Assembly: GCA_029571125.1 (NCBI GenBank)
Contig: JAKPTH010000341.1
Location: 1 to 49,210 of the forward strand
Length of the DNA: 49,210 bases
Origin: a bacterium
GTDB lineage: Bacteria; Muiribacteriota; UBA9980
Reading direction: 5' to 3'
The notes beneath the pieces are model-generated. The model saw nothing but the letters and a program-made list of their open reading frames with translations, was not told where the DNA came from and did no database searches. Position numbers and translations under genes: made by a program. Positions 14,900-36,790 of the stretch are shown here, in pieces (position 1 is the stretch's first letter; each line of letters opens with the position of its first letter).

Positions 14900-15451
14900 A
14901 TGTTAAAAAAAGCACCTGAAATAAAATCAGGCCGAAAAATCTCTTGCGGCAACGAAAATAAAGGTAAAACAAATACGGCTCAAAAAGACGCCGATATTCT
15001 CTACGCATTCAAGCCCGTCGGATTCGTGAGACGCGAGGGCGCCTCTGAACGCGTAGATTGGAGCGATCTTGGCTCGGTATCGCGGATCGAGATTCTCCCG
15101 CGTTACGCTCCCGCCCTCGACGGCCTGGAAGAATATTCGCATATAATAATATTTTTCGTCTTCCACAAAAGAAAGACGGTAAAACTAACCCAGCGCCCTG
15201 AAAACAAAAGGCGCAATCCCGAAGTCGGCATCTTCTGCACCAACTCGGAAAAAAGGCCGAACCCTCTAGGAATGACCGTTGTGCGGCTGTTTAAGGCAGA
15301 AGGCAATATCCTCACGGTGAGCGGCCTTGACGCGCTCGACGGCACGCCCGTAATAGACATCAAGCCTTACGCCGGTTTTGAAGAGGAGGCGCCAGAATAC
15401 CTTATTCCCGGCTGGCTGATGAACATATGGGAAAGGCAACATTCTTCGTAA
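14900..15451 (+). CDS. TrmO/TsaA-like SAM-binding protein
   Basis: KPVGFVRRE ... GLEEYSHIIIFFVFHK ... EKRPNPLGMTVVRL ... ALDGTPVIDIKPY. Confidence 0.85.
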   Translation: MLKKAPEIKSGRKISCGNENKGKTNTAQKDADILYAFKPVGFVRREGASERVDWSDLGSVSRIEILPRYAPALDGLEEYSHIIIFFVFHKRKTVKLTQRPENKRRNPEVGIFCTNSEKRPNPLGMTVVRLFKAEGNILTVSGLDALDGTPVIDIKPYAGFEEEAPEYLIPGWLMNIWERQHSS

Positions 15452-18568: not shown

Positions 18569-18949
18569 TTAATGATGGCCGCCGCAGACGAAATCCGCCG
18601 ATATGGGCGAGACTTTTCCCTTTTCGTAATTAGCTCTTACATCTTTAACGTAATCGCCATCTGAGACGAAAACTTCTATGCCTACGCTTTTAAAACCGGC
18701 AAGCGGTCTGCCGCCGATGCCCCCTACCACTATCGCGTTCACTTTATTGGCGGCAAGCAAGTTTACCGGCGCGAGGCAACCGCCATCTACGTGGGGCGGG
18801 TTTTCAATAACTTTGCAATCCATGAACTTATTGTTTTCGTCGAATGAAAGGATGCTGAAGCAGTCACAGCGGCCAAAATGCGAAGATCTTTCGGCGTCGA
18901 GACCGCCTTTACCCATAGAGGGAACGGCAACGTTTATTGTTTTTGACAT
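18569..18949 (-). CDS. Orp/MTH1175-like (NifX/NifB-type dinitrogenase iron-molybdenum cofactor family) protein, start revised to ATG 18949
   Basis: SKTINVAVPSMGKGGLDAERSSHFGRCDCFSIL ... VVGGIGGRPLAGFKSVGIEVF; C-terminal CGGHH; AAGGAG upstream of ATG 18949. Confidence 0.85.
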   Translation of the reverse strand: MSKTINVAVPSMGKGGLDAERSSHFGRCDCFSILSFDENNKFMDCKVIENPPHVDGGCLAPVNLLAANKVNAIVVGGIGGRPLAGFKSVGIEVFVSDGDYVKDVRANYEKGKVSPISADFVCGGHH

Positions 18950-18989
18950 AAAAATTACTCCTTCTTTTTTTAGGTTATACAGGTTAATA

Positions 18990-19005
18990 AGCAAATTTTG
19001 TGCCC
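18990..19005 (-). promoter_or_regulatory. sigma54 (-24/-12) promoter for the Orp-like gene
   Basis: Minus strand GGGCACAAAATTTGCT, close match to TGGCACGNNNNTTGCW with exact GG-N10-GC spacing. Confidence 0.75.
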
Positions 19006-19030
19006 GATTTTATTATATCCGAAAAAATTA

Positions 19031-19046
19031 CGGTATGCTAATTGCT
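19031..19046 (+). promoter_or_regulatory. sigma54 (-24/-12) promoter for the 19106 gene
   Basis: CGGTATGCTAATTGCT: GG-N10-GC with perfect TTGCT -12 element. Confidence 0.65.
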
Positions 19047-19105: not shown

Positions 19106-19561
19106 ATGAAAATAGGCTTTTTCACTGATGATTTCAAAAATGTTTCCAACCATCCGGGCAAATCGGCGGGGTTGTATATTTTTGAAATCGCAAACGGCGA
19201 AATTTTAGACGAAGAAATAAAAATCTTCGACGAAAACGATTTTTCCAACGCCTCGCTCGTTAATCCCGGAATTTCCGGCTGCGGCGCTTCAAAAGGCCGG
19301 GGCGGGCAAAACGGCCGGGGTTGTTTCAAATTCAGAAACGGATTCATCCGCATCGATGAAAACATTAAAAACCTCAACGTTGGGGCGTCTTTTTACGGTT
19401 GTAAAACGGTAGTATGCAGGGCGATAGGGTTCAATCTCGAAAACAAGCTCGCCGGGGCCGGAATAGAGCTTCTCATTACCTGCGAAACCGATATCAAAAA
19501 CGCCGTAAAGCTTTACGCGGAAGGAAAATTTGAAAACTTACACAAAACAGAGTTTTTATAA
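19106..19561 (+). CDS. NifX/NifB-type dinitrogenase iron-molybdenum cofactor-like protein
   Basis: MKIGFFTDDFKNVSNHPGKSAGLYIFEI ... GCKTVVCRAIGFNLENKLAGAGIELLITCE. Confidence 0.7.
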   Translation: MKIGFFTDDFKNVSNHPGKSAGLYIFEIANGEILDEEIKIFDENDFSNASLVNPGISGCGASKGRGGQNGRGCFKFRNGFIRIDENIKNLNVGASFYGCKTVVCRAIGFNLENKLAGAGIELLITCETDIKNAVKLYAEGKFENLHKTEFL

Positions 19562-19571
19562 AAACAAGTTT

Positions 19572-19609
19572 TTGCAATATTGCAAAATTGTAATATTGCA
19601 AAAATGCAA
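19572..19609. promoter_or_regulatory. Tandem TTGCAA palindromic operator array
   Basis: TTGCAATATTGCAA (19572-19585), TTGTAATATTGCAA (19588-19601), TTGCAAAAATGCAA (19596-19609). Confidence 0.7.
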
Positions 19610-19701: not shown

Positions 19702-19717
19702 CGGAACGGATTATGCT
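19702..19717 (+). promoter_or_regulatory. sigma54 (-24/-12) promoter for the 19756-22894 operon
   Basis: CGGAACGGATTATGCT: GG-N10-GC; about 95-130 bp downstream of the TTGCAA array, a normal distance for an enhancer. Confidence 0.65.
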
Positions 19718-19755: not shown

Positions 19756-20154
19756 ATGCACAATAAAACATGCTGGGCATGCGGCCCGGATAACGAAGCC
19801 GGATTAAAAATCAAAGTCGATTGCGACCCTGTTTCGCACATAAGCGAGGCGTCTTTTTATGTAGACGATCGTTACGCCGGAAATGCAGGGGTGGCTCATG
19901 GCGGCGTAATTTGCTCGATCTTCGATTCGCTGATGACCCATTCCGCCATGGCCCATTCGCGCAAAAAAGTTTTTACCGCGAGCCTGGAAGTAAAGTTCAA
20001 GAAAAAAATACCGGCGGGAGAAACCATCAAAATAACTTGCTGGTATGAAAAAAAGCGATTCGGCTTTCTGGTCATGAAAGGACGTATAACCAATCAAAAA
20101 AACAAAGTTATGGCTTTCGCGAACGCCATGTTTTCCGAAAGCGAAACGATATAA
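19756..20154 (+). CDS. PaaI-like hotdog thioesterase
   Basis: CWACGPDNEAGLKIKV ... GVAHGGVICSIFDSLMTHSAM. Confidence 0.88.
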   Translation: MHNKTCWACGPDNEAGLKIKVDCDPVSHISEASFYVDDRYAGNAGVAHGGVICSIFDSLMTHSAMAHSRKKVFTASLEVKFKKKIPAGETIKITCWYEKKRFGFLVMKGRITNQKNKVMAFANAMFSESETI

Positions 20155-20218: not shown

Positions 20219-20536
20219 ATGAAAATAGCGGTAACTTCAACGGGCCCTTCAATAGACAGCGCGGTAGACGAAAGGTTCGGAAGGGCAAGATATATAATAA
20301 TTTACGACACGCTGTCTAAAACTTTTGAAACGGTGGATAACGAAACTAATCTCAACATGGCTCAGGGAGCGGGTATCCAGACCGCGGGCAATATGGCCGA
20401 AAAAAAAGTGGAGCTCATATTGACCGGCCGCGTCGGGCCGAAAGCCTCGGAAGCGCTCAACAAAGCCGGAATAAAATACGTTGAAAACGCTTCCGGAACC
20501 TGCCGCAGCGCAATTGAAAAGCAGCAGGCCGCATAA
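20219..20536 (+). CDS. NifX/MTH1175-like cofactor family protein
   Basis: MKIAVTSTGPSIDSAVDERFGRARYIIIYD ... VELILTGRVGPKASEALNKAGIKYV. Confidence 0.9.
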   Translation: MKIAVTSTGPSIDSAVDERFGRARYIIIYDTLSKTFETVDNETNLNMAQGAGIQTAGNMAEKKVELILTGRVGPKASEALNKAGIKYVENASGTCRSAIEKQQAA

Positions 20537-20567
20537 AATCGGCAATAACTATATAAAGGAAGAATTT

Positions 20568-21467
20568 ATGCTAAATAAAATCACGACACCACTCAAAATC
20601 GCCGTAGCGTCGGGTAAAGGCGGCACGGGAAAGACCAGCGTGGCCGTCAACATGGCCGCCGCCGCGGCAACTGCGCTTTCATTTCTCGACTGTGACGCGG
20701 AAGCGCCCAACGCGCATTTATTTTTTCAAAAGCAGGCAGGTTTTAGGGCGGACAATCACGACGAATTTTTCGACGGCGTTGAAGAATTTTATGTAACGGT
20801 GCCCGAATTCAACGAAAATTTATGCAACGGCTGCGGTTTTTGTAAAACGGTGTGCAAGTTTAACGCCATTACCATGATACTCAACAAACCGCTTTTTTTC
20901 GCGGAACTCTGTCATTCTTGCGATGCGTGCCTTAAAGTATGCTCTATGGGGGCTATCAAAGCCGCAAAAAAAATGACCGGAAAGATAAGACATAAAAAAG
21001 CGGACCGCGATATAGCTTTAACGGACGCAATATTGAACGTCAGCGAGGCTAAGAGCCCGCCTTTGATAAAAAAAATAGTCAAAAGCGATTCGGGGCCTTC
21101 GCTAACCATAATAGACGCGCCTCCGGGCACGAGCTGCCCTCTGGTAGCGGCCGTCTATAACGCGGATTATATAATTCTGGTCACGGAGCCGACGCCGTTC
21201 GGCTTCAGCGATCTCAAGCTCGCCGTGGAAACGGCGCGGCAGTTAAAAGTCAAATTCGGAGTCGTTATAAACAAATATGACGGCGATTTCGGCGATATTA
21301 AAAAATACTGTGAAACCGAAAATATTAGAATAATAGGCATAATACCTTTCGATATCCAGATGGCCCGCGTATATTCCGGCGGCGGCATAATAGTCGATGA
21401 AATGCCGCATACGCGTGAACTGTTTTTGAAGATATTAGAAAACGCGGTCAGCGAGGCGGTAAAATGA
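20568..21467 (+). CDS. MinD/Mrp-type P-loop ATPase with inserted [4Fe-4S] ferredoxin domain (start revised to ATG 20568)
   Basis: VASGKGGTGKTSVAVNMA; NGCGFCKTVCKF and HSCDACLKVC; AAAGGAAG upstream of ATG 20568. Confidence 0.92.
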   Translation: MLNKITTPLKIAVASGKGGTGKTSVAVNMAAAAATALSFLDCDAEAPNAHLFFQKQAGFRADNHDEFFDGVEEFYVTVPEFNENLCNGCGFCKTVCKFNAITMILNKPLFFAELCHSCDACLKVCSMGAIKAAKKMTGKIRHKKADRDIALTDAILNVSEAKSPPLIKKIVKSDSGPSLTIIDAPPGTSCPLVAAVYNADYIILVTEPTPFGFSDLKLAVETARQLKVKFGVVINKYDGDFGDIKKYCETENIRIIGIIPFDIQMARVYSGGGIIVDEMPHTRELFLKILENAVSEAVK

Positions 21468-22348
21468 AACAGATAGCTGTAATTTCAGGCAAAGGGGGCA
21501 CGGGAAAAACGTCCATCACGGCCGCTTTTATACAATCGGCAAAATCAGTTACGGCGGCGGATTGCGACGTGGACGCCGCAAATCTGCATCTACTGATAGA
21601 GCCTATAAGCGGCAGAACCGCGCCGAAAGCTTTTATGAGCGGATACGACGCGATAGTGGACAAATCCAGGTGTATTAGCTGCGGCAAATGTATTCCCGTT
21701 TGCGTTTTCGAAGCGATAGTACGCGACGAAACCGACAACAAGGTAAAAACCAATCATCTTTTATGCGAAGGCTGCGGGGCATGCGTAACCATCTGCCGCG
21801 CCAACGCGATCAAGCTGGTAGAAAAACAGGCCGGCATAAGTTATATTTCTAACACGCGCTTCGGCCCGATGACGCATGCAAAGCTTTACGCCGGAGAAGG
21901 TTCGTCAGGAAAGCTCGTATCGGAAATAAAAAAACAGGCATGCGACATCGCCAGATCGGAAAGCAGCGATTTTATAATACTTGACGGCCCTCCTGGCACC
22001 GGATGCCCCGTGATCGCGACTCTTACGGGGGCAAACCGCGCCGTCGTCGTAATAGAACCGAGCGTTTCAGGCGTACACGACGCCAAACGCGCTATAGAAC
22101 TATGCAAACATTTTAAAGTACCGGTTTCTATAATAATAAACAAGTATGACATCAATCTCAAAATGAGCGAAAACATTGAAAATTTTGCCGGAGAAAATAA
22201 AATAAGCATTATCGGTAAAATCGCTTTCGATAAAATTTTTATCGAAGCGATGAAAAAGCGAATGACGGTAATCGAATACGACAAACATTCCGCGGCGGCG
22301 AAATCGCTTATCAACGCCTGGGATAACCTTAAAAAATCTATGGCATGA
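21464..22348 (+). CDS. MinD/Mrp-type P-loop ATPase with inserted [4Fe-4S] ferredoxin domain
   Basis: ISGKGGTGKTSITAAF; ISCGKCIPVC and EGCGACVTIC; overlaps upstream gene by 4 nt. Confidence 0.92.
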   Translation: MKQIAVISGKGGTGKTSITAAFIQSAKSVTAADCDVDAANLHLLIEPISGRTAPKAFMSGYDAIVDKSRCISCGKCIPVCVFEAIVRDETDNKVKTNHLLCEGCGACVTICRANAIKLVEKQAGISYISNTRFGPMTHAKLYAGEGSSGKLVSEIKKQACDIARSESSDFIILDGPPGTGCPVIATLTGANRAVVVIEPSVSGVHDAKRAIELCKHFKVPVSIIINKYDINLKMSENIENFAGENKISIIGKIAFDKIFIEAMKKRMTVIEYDKHSAAAKSLINAWDNLKKSMA

Positions 22349-22399: not shown

Positions 22400-22894
22400 A
22401 TGATTTATTTTAAACCCATAGGATATATTTACACTCCTTTTCAAACCGTCGAAAATATGCCGGTACAAGCGGCGGCCGCAAAAGGAATCCGCGGCACCAT
22501 AATGATAAAAGACGAATTCGCAGCAGGATTGAAAGACATCGAAGAGTTTTCGCATCTTTACCTTGTATATCAATTTCACAAATGCGAAGGCCATTCTCTC
22601 GTCGTAACGCCGTTTTTAGACGATAAAACGCACGGCATATTCGCCACGCGTTCGCCAAAAAGGCCATGCGGTATAGGTATTTCAATAGTAAAACTCAACG
22701 GCGTTAACGGAGGCGAGTTAAGCGTAGAAAACGTCGATATGATAAACGAAACGCCGCTGCTCGATATCAAACCGTATATACCCGAATTCGACATAATCGA
22801 GGGCGAAGTAAAAACAGGCTGGTATGCACGCAAGTCGAAAAATCTCCATGAAACCAGATCCGATGGACGTTTTAAAAATAAAATATTTTTCTAA
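22400..22894 (+). CDS. TrmO/TsaA-like SAM-binding protein
   Basis: KPIGYIYTPFQTVENMPVQ ... LKDIEEFSHLYLVYQFHKCEG ... SPKRPCGIGISIVKL ... PLLDIKPY. Confidence 0.88.
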   Translation: MIYFKPIGYIYTPFQTVENMPVQAAAAKGIRGTIMIKDEFAAGLKDIEEFSHLYLVYQFHKCEGHSLVVTPFLDDKTHGIFATRSPKRPCGIGISIVKLNGVNGGELSVENVDMINETPLLDIKPYIPEFDIIEGEVKTGWYARKSKNLHETRSDGRFKNKIFF

Positions 22895-34105: not shown

Positions 34106-34834
34106 ATGACAAATGAAACATTAAAACAACCCGTAATCGAATCCATGCCGCGCATAGGCGACAAAGCGCCTTCATTCAAAGCCGTCACCACTCAGGGCGA
34201 GATCGTTTTTCCCGAACAGTATCAGGGCAGCTGGGTAATTTTATTCAGCCATCCCGCCGATTTCACGCCCGTATGCACGTCAGAATTCATGACGTTCGCG
34301 ACGCTGGAAAACCAGTTCGCCGAAGTCAACTGCAAGCTGGTGGGCCTTTCCGTTGACGGATTATACAGCCATATCGCGTGGCTGAGGACTATAAAAGAAA
34401 AAATCGAATATAAAGGCATGAAAAACGTGGAAGTTAAATTTCCGCTTATCGAAGATATAACAATGGAAGTCGCCAAAAAATACGGCATGATGCAGCCCGG
34501 CGAAAGCTCCACTAAAGCCGTCCGCGCGGTTTTCGTAATCGACCCCAGGGGAATAATCCGCGCGATAATTTACTATCCGCTCAGCCTCGGCAGGAATTTC
34601 GACGAACTTTACAGAGTGGTCGTCGCGCTCCAGACGGCCGACGAATTTAAAGTGGCCACCCCGGCCGACTGGCGTCCGGGCGACGATGTGATAGTCCCCC
34701 CGGCGGGCTCGTGCGGAGTGGCGAAAGAGCGCATGGAAGGCAAAGACGACATAAAATGCTACGACTGGTTCTTCTGCACTAAAAAAATCGATAAAACCAA
34801 AGTGATGGGCGCTATTAAAAAAGCGGGCAAATAA
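34106..34834 (+). CDS. Peroxiredoxin (AhpC/TSA family, Prx6-like)
   Basis: FSHPADFTPVCTSEF peroxidatic Cys motif; VRAVFVIDPRGIIRAIIYYP. Confidence 0.95.
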   Translation: MTNETLKQPVIESMPRIGDKAPSFKAVTTQGEIVFPEQYQGSWVILFSHPADFTPVCTSEFMTFATLENQFAEVNCKLVGLSVDGLYSHIAWLRTIKEKIEYKGMKNVEVKFPLIEDITMEVAKKYGMMQPGESSTKAVRAVFVIDPRGIIRAIIYYPLSLGRNFDELYRVVVALQTADEFKVATPADWRPGDDVIVPPAGSCGVAKERMEGKDDIKCYDWFFCTKKIDKTKVMGAIKKAGK

Positions 34835-34873: not shown

Positions 34874-34899
34874 AAGGCCGCAGCGATGCGGCCTTTTTT
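34874..34899 (+). terminator. Rho-independent terminator after peroxiredoxin
   Basis: AAGGCCGCA-gcga-TGCGGCCTT followed by T-run. Confidence 0.8.
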
Positions 34900-34917
34900 C
34901 AAAATCGCAATAATCGA

Positions 34918-34954
34918 TTGCAATTTTGCAATATTTTTTCATTTGTGATATAAT
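34918..34954 (+). promoter_or_regulatory. sigma70 promoter with overlapping TTGCAA palindrome upstream of the sigma54 activator
   Basis: TTGCAATTTTGCAA (34918-34931); its distal TTGCAA (34926-34931) acts as the -35, 17-nt spacer, TATAAT (34949-34954). Confidence 0.65.
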
Positions 34955-34960
34955 TTTATT

Positions 34961-36313
34961 ATGAAAAAAAATTACATGGCAATAGATCAGATACTCGATT
35001 TTCTCGACGACGGCATATTCACCGTCGACAGGGATTTTAAAATCACCTCGTTCAACCGCGCAGCCGAAAAAATCACCGGCGTTTCTGAAAAAGACGCTCT
35101 TGATAAAAACTGCGCGGCCGTTTTCAATACTCCTTTATGCAAGTCGGCCTGCCCTTTAAAAGAAGCCATAAAAAAAGAAAAGCAGACTGGCGGCGTAAAA
35201 ATACAGATCAACACCGGGGCCGGAAAAGCGCTTCCAATCTGCGTTACCGCAGGCCCCCTTTACGGAAGGGACGGTTCTGTGACCGGCGGCATCGAAATAT
35301 TCCGCGACATATCCGGCATTGAAAACCTAAAAAAAGAGCTCGACGAAAAATATTCTCATTACGATATCGTAGGCAAAAGCGAATATATGAAAACTCTTTT
35401 CAACATTCTTCCGGACATAGCCGAAAGCGACTGCAACGTCCTTATAGAAGGCCCGTCAGGCAGCGGAAAGAGCCTCGCCGCAAAAACCATACACAACCTT
35501 TCGGAGCGTTCTAAAAAGCCGTTCATAGTCATAAACTGCGGAGCGCTGCCCGAAACGCTCCTGGAATCGGAACTTTTCGGTTACGCCAGAGGCGCGTTCA
35601 CCGACGCGAAAAAAGACAAGCCCGGCAGGTTCGCCCTGGCCGAAGGCGGCACGATTTTTCTGGACGAGATAGCCGAAATGCCTTTTCATCTGCAGGTCAA
35701 GTTGCTGCGCGTCATAGAAGACAGGCGATACGAGCCGCTCGGCGGCGTGAAAACCAGGAACGCCGACGTGCGCATAATCGCGGCCACCAATAAAGATCTG
35801 GGTTCGATGGTGAAAAAGGAAAAATTCAGGGAAGACCTTTATTACCGCCTTAAAATAGTTAATTTAAGGATGCCGGCGCTGGCGGAACGCCGCGAAGACA
35901 TTGAAATGCTGGCCCGCCATTTCATAAAAAACTTCAACGCCAGAAAGAGCAATAAAATCACTGAAATATCGCCAAAAGTCCTTGAATTTTTCGCGGTGTA
36001 CGACTTTCCCGGCAACGTGCGCGAACTCGAAAATATACTCGAATACTGTTATATATTTTGTAAAGACGGAAAGCTTCTGCCGGATCATCTTCCGGCCGAC
36101 TGCCGCAGCTTCGTTTCAGGCATGGCGGCGCTTTCGCCGAAATCCTTAAAGCCATCGCCTCTGGCGCTGGAACGCGCCGTCGAAAACACCGAAAAAGTTT
36201 CGATAGTCAACGCTCTCGAACGTTTCGAAGGCGACAAAAAAAGCGCGGCGCGGTTCTTGAAAATAGATTATTCAACGCTGTGGCGCAAAATGAAAAAATA
36301 TTCGCTGAATTAA
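34961..36313 (+). CDS. PAS-domain sigma54-dependent transcriptional activator (candidate OrpR-like)
   Basis: PAS domain; Walker A GPSGSGKS; GAFTDA (variant of GAFTGA); GGTIFLDEIAEM; C-terminal Fis-type HTH. Confidence 0.92.
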   Translation: MKKNYMAIDQILDFLDDGIFTVDRDFKITSFNRAAEKITGVSEKDALDKNCAAVFNTPLCKSACPLKEAIKKEKQTGGVKIQINTGAGKALPICVTAGPLYGRDGSVTGGIEIFRDISGIENLKKELDEKYSHYDIVGKSEYMKTLFNILPDIAESDCNVLIEGPSGSGKSLAAKTIHNLSERSKKPFIVINCGALPETLLESELFGYARGAFTDAKKDKPGRFALAEGGTIFLDEIAEMPFHLQVKLLRVIEDRRYEPLGGVKTRNADVRIIAATNKDLGSMVKKEKFREDLYYRLKIVNLRMPALAERREDIEMLARHFIKNFNARKSNKITEISPKVLEFFAVYDFPGNVRELENILEYCYIFCKDGKLLPDHLPADCRSFVSGMAALSPKSLKPSPLALERAVENTEKVSIVNALERFEGDKKSAARFLKIDYSTLWRKMKKYSLN

Positions 36314-36391: not shown

Positions 36392-36790
36392 ATGATCAAA
36401 CCCGTTTACAGAAAAAGCGTACAACGCCAGAAAATCTACGAATTCATAAAAGGGTCGTTCGACCATCCGAGCGCGATGTCCATTTATGAAACGCTGCGCG
36501 AGAAATTGCCGGCTTTAAGCCTGGGGACGGTTTACAGAAACCTCGCCATCCTCGTAGAGCAGGGGCTGGTCACAAGAATGCCCTTCAAAAACGGCTTCGA
36601 CCGTTTCGACGCCAACACGCTCGCGCATCATCATTTAATATGCGAAAAATGCGGAAATGTAGAAGATATAACTCTGCCGGCGCTCGCCGAAATAGATAAA
36701 ATCGCCGCCAGAAGCAATGAATTTAAAATTTTACGCCACAGAATAGAGTTTTACGGGATCTGCCGAAATTGCGGCAAACGCGGCGATTAA
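36392..36790 (+). CDS. Fur/PerR-family metalloregulator
   Basis: HPSAMSIYETLREKLPALSLGTVYRNLAIL; HHHLICEKCGNVEDI and ICRNCGK (two CxxC motifs). Confidence 0.93.
   Translation: MIKPVYRKSVQRQKIYEFIKGSFDHPSAMSIYETLREKLPALSLGTVYRNLAILVEQGLVTRMPFKNGFDRFDANTLAHHHLICEKCGNVEDITLPALAEIDKIAARSNEFKILRHRIEFYGICRNCGKRGD

Follow-up and report, generated by a model that had tools for sequence, protein, structure and literature searches.

TTGCAA palindromes as predicted operators of a PAS-type sigma54 activator at an ORP-like operon and at the activator's own promoter

The window (the whole 49,210-nucleotide stretch that was analysed) carries an ORP-like operon on its forward strand. Its first gene, at 19756-20154, encodes a hotdog thioesterase (PF03061), and is followed by an orange-protein-like gene with a Nitro_FeMo-Co domain (20219-20536, PF02579) and by two genes for MinD-type ATPases with 4Fe-4S domains. 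The first of these, at 20481-21467, is Orp3/Orp4-like, the 4Fe-4S domains being inserted into the ATPase (CbiA and Fer4 matches), and its true start is probably located downstream of 20481; the second lies at 21464-22348 (ParA/CbiA and Fer4 matches). The operon is preceded by a sigma54 promoter of the GG-N10-GC type, CGGAACGGATTATGCT, at 19702-19717 on the forward strand, which matches 9 of the 12 consensus positions. Further upstream, a forward-strand gene with a C-terminal Nitro_FeMo-Co domain (19106-19561, PF02579) and a gene on the reverse strand (18569-18994) diverge from each other, each with a sigma54 promoter of its own: CGGTATGCTAATTGCT at 19031-19046 on the forward strand for the former, and GGGCACAAAATTTGCT at 18990-19005 on the reverse strand for the latter (10 of 12 consensus positions). 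Two TrmO-like genes are also present in the window (14900-15451 and 22400-22894), one of them ending the ORP operon, and TrmO homologs were seen in several ORP loci elsewhere.

Between the 19106-19561 gene and the 19702 promoter lies the array that we propose as an operator or enhancer, at 19572-19609. Three TTGCAA palindromes had been noted there, about 95-130 bp upstream of the promoter, and all three were found at exactly these coordinates: TTGCAATATTGCAA at 19572-19585, TTGTAATATTGCAA at 19588-19601 and TTGCAAAAATGCAA at 19596-19609, the measured distance being 93-130 bp. The array is nevertheless better read as five TTGCAA-like half-sites with a period of 8 bp, starting at 19572, 19580, 19588, 19596 and 19604. 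An additional overlapping dyad, TTGCAAAATTGTAA, is found at 19580-19593, so that TTGC-N6-GCAA-like dyads begin at each of the first four half-sites. With an 8-bp period, not all of these dyads can be filled simultaneously.

Two other genomes of the same genus, designated G001 and G003, were compared with the window genome (G000, a 4.87-Mb assembly). The activator protein described below is 100% identical to that of G000 in G001, and 78% identical in G003 (UBP16_UBA6123). An array upstream of the hotdog gene is kept in both. The arrays of G000 and G003 were compared by eye; MAFFT set the short G003 array against the 19702 region. Those of G000 and G001 differ mainly by an inverted 10-bp loop between 13-bp inverted arms, and a 35-bp stretch matches at 100% in reverse orientation (window 19570-19604; L057:4982-5016). 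This is a template-switch-like change, and since the sites are retained on both sides of the difference, they have survived the inversion.

Both promoters of the divergent pair are identical in G001, where the 19702 promoter is conserved as GGGAACGGATTATGCT. An exact IHF consensus is found between array and promoter in G001, and none with at least 8 of 9 positions in G000. In G003, where the 19106-19561 gene is conserved and the divergent gene has a counterpart (ORF L060:263-661, translations inspected), no sigma54 promoter was found between the array and the hotdog gene. The nearest ones, about 540 bp upstream of the array, form a divergent pair equivalent to 19005/19031. The array is therefore not simply a proximal enhancer of the 19702 promoter, and may also act on the divergent pair from about 540 bp. 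One could go further, and suppose that the array primarily serves the divergent pair as an enhancer, the 19702 promoter being secondary or a recent addition: G003 keeps the array at the same place without a 19702-type promoter, and no TTGCA dyad was seen beside the divergent pair (18990-19046) or nearer to it in G000. We regard this as unlikely, given the conservation of the 19702 promoter in G001 and the strong sigma54 promoters that follow the motif at close range in most other loci (see below).

The activator gene lies at 34961-36313 on the forward strand, between a peroxiredoxin gene (34106-34834) and a Fur-family gene (36392-36790), neighbours that suggest an oxidative-stress context. Its product combines a PAS domain, an AAA+ sigma54-interaction domain (PF00158, 228.7 bits for a cut-off of 20.2) and a Fis-type HTH of the HTH_8 class (PF02954, 47.7 bits) with the recognition helix IDYSTLWRK. 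The loop of the AAA+ domain reads GAFTDA in place of GAFTGA, a variant listed for DVU2106 of Desulfovibrio (PMC4641369). A single rpoN copy was found in the genome (PF04552, 207.8 bits), together with about 20 full EBPs; among those with readable C-termini, a helix of this class recurs only in L015 (IDRTTLWRK). The best NCBIfam match of the activator is PrdR (NF041552, aligned residues 4-447), with which it shares the PAS-AAA-HTH architecture; at 374.7 bits, well under the cut-off of 795, identity with PrdR is ruled out. The PAS domain contains three cysteines arranged as C-x8-C-x3-C, CAAVFNTPLCKSAC, an arrangement shared by 94 of 95 family members but by none of the other readable EBPs of this and related genomes. 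It is a candidate sensor of Fe-S clusters, metal or redox state. On the strength of a reported involvement of MrpORP in Fe-S biogenesis (PMC6345978), one may reasonably guess at an Fe-S or redox signal.

A 13/14 match to the dyad had been noted over the -35 of the activator gene, and TTGCAATTTTGCAA is indeed located there, at 34918-34931. Its right half (34926-34931) coincides with the -35 hexamer, TTGCAA, which matches 4 of 6 consensus positions and is followed after 17 bp by the extended -10 element TGATATAAT on the forward strand (34946-34954). This element is perfect, with TATAAT at 34949-34954 preceded by the TG. A degenerate second dyad, TTTCAAAATCGCAA, is found 21 bp upstream of the first, at 34897-34910, and reads TTTCAATATTGCAA in G001. 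The first dyad lies in the same register in G001 and G003. The DNA upstream of the activator gene has diverged between G003 and G000, and little matches there beyond the dyad, the spacing of 17 bp and TGATATAAT: the G003 dyad, TTGCAGTATTGCAA, ends exactly 17 bp before a TATAAT with its extended TG, and has 12 of its 14 bases in common with that of G000. The start codon is further downstream in G003, leaving a long 5' leader, whereas in G000 the ATG (34961) comes almost directly after the -10, whose last base is 34954, and is not preceded by a Shine-Dalgarno sequence. The G000 activator mRNA may be leaderless, or translated from the Met at 34976.

An activator bound to this dyad would cover its own -35. 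A protein in this position normally blocks the sigma70 polymerase, and for this reason we favour repression over a neutral dyad. It could also be that the activator works from its sites elsewhere, the 34918 dyad being neutral for its own sigma70 promoter or even helping it. Since the dyad supplies the -35 hexamer too, its conservation could partly reflect what the promoter needs. Moreover, in loci outside the genus the upstream dyads are not in a -35 register with a good -10, so that occlusion of the -35 is seen in this genus only. The left half of the dyad, however, lies outside the -35 and is kept in G003 as well, and the DVU2106 site overlaps the sigma70 promoter of its own gene, for which a negative loop was proposed by the authors (PMC3897727). 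A dyad that does not repress thus seems to us quite improbable, and self-limitation by the activator remains the preferred reading.

The dyad is rare in the genome. A scan of the whole assembly found the exact dyad TTGCAANNTTGCAA at three places: the ORP-operon promoter, across the activator -35, and inside an unrelated DegT-type ORF. The mononucleotide estimate is 0.33, but the reversed-pattern control also gives 3, and taken by itself the number of genomic matches is thus not significant. In the window itself, 9 dyad matches with at most 3 mismatches were found for 3.75 expected. The looser pattern TTGCANNNNTGCAA has 5 matches in G000, of which 3 fall within the two promoters, one in the DegT-type ORF and one on contig C123, at a site with no ORF of at least 80 codons across it. 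No wider regulon was found in G000, as the other TTGCA-N4-TGCAA sites are coding, ORF-less on C123, or absent from G003. A literature search with the dyad string returned nothing relevant. Exact dyads in distant genomes of the same phylum (L050, L052, L061-L063) look like chance occurrences, neither ORP nor EBP genes being present around them in the stretches retrieved.

The motif is accordingly not an abundant AT-rich repeat, as the genome-wide scan might have revealed. Chance, or simple repeats of AT-rich DNA, could be argued from the AT-rich flanks and from a genome count no higher than that of the reversed control. We reject this as practically negligible on the placement of the sites at two linked promoters, their persistence at both in G001 and G003, the recurrence across phyla beside the same EBP family, and the association with the recognition helix described below. 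The case for the predicted operators rests on placement, on conservation in the two other genomes and on this cross-phylum recurrence.

For the comparison across phyla, 80 loci encoding relatives of the EBP were selected on the similarity of their proteins, DNA motifs playing no part in the choice; outside the genus, these relatives are 46-51% identical to the window activator. All tetramer dyads were counted in flanks of 250 bp before and 300 bp after each EBP gene. At their own gap lengths, TTGC-N6-GCAA and TTGC-N5-GCAA ranked first over the 80 loci, and the leader at gap 4, TGCA-N4-TGCA, is the same motif shifted. TTGC-N5/6-GCAA was found beside the EBP gene in 27 of 79 non-genus loci, whereas 300 dinucleotide shuffles gave 2.4 on average and never more than 7. 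Several of the loci with the motif have pairs of it 31-32 bp apart. Among 27 testable loci, 19 have a sigma54 promoter matching 10 or more of the 12 consensus positions no further than 250 bp past the motif, mostly at 60-150 bp, a distance like that of the 19702 promoter; the number expected from shuffles is 0.1. Locus L098 has the exact window dyad and, about 100 bp past the last dyad, a 12/12 sigma54 promoter followed by a gene that is Nitro_FeMo-Co-like by inspection. ORP-cluster genes were present near the EBP in 40 of the 79 loci, many of which are short contigs, and a related EBP was found in most of 20 Desulfobacterota loci fetched for MrpORP. In two Desulfobulbaceae loci, L106 and L128, several TTGC-N6-GCAA pairs 32-33 bp apart are distributed along the locus, which suggests a larger local regulon.

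Binding of the motif by the activator, as predicted from sequence, is supported by this independent comparative evidence. It may be asked whether another protein binds the palindromes instead, and two are at hand: the Fur-family regulator encoded just downstream of the activator, and another EBP such as L015, whose helix is of the same class. Of the 80 EBP loci, however, only 2 have a Fur homolog nearby, and the 20 Desulfobacterota loci have none; a Fur/PerR-type binder is disfavoured by this rare linkage. The dyad recurs beside EBP genes, and the remaining TTGCA-N4-TGCAA sites in G000 are not at other regulators. A different binder is therefore, in our view, very unlikely, and the 34961-36313 activator is retained as the predicted binder.

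The motif was next related to the recognition helix of the EBPs. The motif accompanies helices of the form I[DNHE]x[ST]TL[WFY]R in 32 of 64 non-genus loci, and any other helix in 1 of 29. The Fisher p of 4e-6 is optimistic, given that the classes of helix were defined with the sequences in view and that the loci, being related, are not independent. Half of the loci with a matching helix thus have no motif in the flanks searched. The association does not come from the inheritance of one lineage alone, as the motif label must have changed no fewer than 10 times along the EBP tree. Loci with [SG]RTTLWR helices (L101, L103, L105, L107, L113, L117 and L118, and the IGRTTLWRK loci) have GTTTC-N6-GAAAC dyads instead, in 6 of 13 cases, which would seem to be a further operator used within this EBP family. 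In two Desulfovibrio-like loci, L213 and L225, which have the helix ITKDTLRRI and a divergent orp arrangement, the dyad is GRCGAA-N3-TTCGYC. The equivalent place is occupied by GACGAATTTTTCGTC and GACGAATTATTCGTC, separated by 31 bp, or else by a degenerate pair that keeps this spacing.

NtrC-type EBPs have an AAA+ sigma54-interaction domain and an HTH_8, and bind dyads upstream of -24/-12 promoters. Many relatives of the window activator resemble them in having paired sites 31-32 bp apart, or about three helical turns, whereas the window genus packs its sites at 8-bp steps; the PAS domain with its C-x8-C-x3-C is a further difference. The closest system known to us by description is the DVU2106/orp1-orp2 circuit of Desulfovibrio vulgaris Hildenborough, reportedly described in Fievet 2011. 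DVU2106 binds palindromes at -88 and -131 of the sigma54 orp promoters, and its circuit needs IHF (PMC3897727). The window shares with it a GAFTDA sigma54 activator, dyads before an ORP sigma54 promoter and a dyad overlapping the regulator's own sigma70-type promoter. It differs in that the DVU2106 gene lies within the orp cluster, whereas 15 kb separate the window activator gene from the operon, and in having a dense TTGCAA array as operator; the operator sequence probably differs too, to judge by the GRCGAA-N3-TTCGYC dyads of the two Desulfovibrio-like loci taken as proxies. The closed type of circuit is thus already published for DVU2106; newly recognised here are the DNA word and its wide distribution.

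From the placement of the sites, their conservation and recurrence, the association between motif and helix, the sigma54 promoters downstream and the conserved cysteines, we infer how the activator binds, activates the operon, represses its own gene and acts on the divergent pair, and what kind of signal it senses, in the following way. A dimer of the HTH_8 would read TTGC-N6-GCAA (TTGCA-N3/4-TGCAA in the wider family). Bound to the 19572-19609 array, the activator would act as on an enhancer, its AAA+ ring contacting the sigma54 RNA polymerase at 19702 through the GAFTDA loop and thereby driving the hotdog-ORP-MinD/ferredoxin operon; the same array may serve the divergent promoters 19005/19031. 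Bound to the single dyad at 34918-34931, it would limit its own synthesis. The signal, whether metal, Fe-S or redox, would probably be sensed by the Cys-rich PAS domain. That the TTGCAA palindromes are the operators of the 34961-36313 EBP, with activation of the ORP operon and limitation of its own synthesis, is in our judgement highly probable. The closed circuit of the original prediction is the best explanation, with the same dyad beside the genes of relatives and the -35 register kept in G003; its binding and repression steps are predicted from sequence.

A broader proposal would be a regulon spanning several phyla, in which a PAS-EBP with an invariant three-Cys sensor, of Fe-S or redox type, controls ORP/Fe-S-delivery operons via TTGCA-N3/4-TGCAA, with a readable helix code that shifted to other dyads in some lineages, the 8-bp array of the candidate phylum UBP16 serving three sigma54 promoters, one pair of them across a gene. 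This we put forward tentatively, as somewhat short of probable. The ORP complex has been described as specific to anaerobes, little is known of its role, and studies of its regulation have, to our knowledge, been confined to one Desulfovibrio. A cis-code common to EBPs of many phyla, together with the cysteine motif of the sensor, would make ORP regulons predictable in uncultured bacteria. With this cysteine motif conserved, a single purified protein would suffice to test whether the signal is Fe-S status or redox, and the association between helix and operator would offer a direct test of specificity change in HTH_8 regulators.
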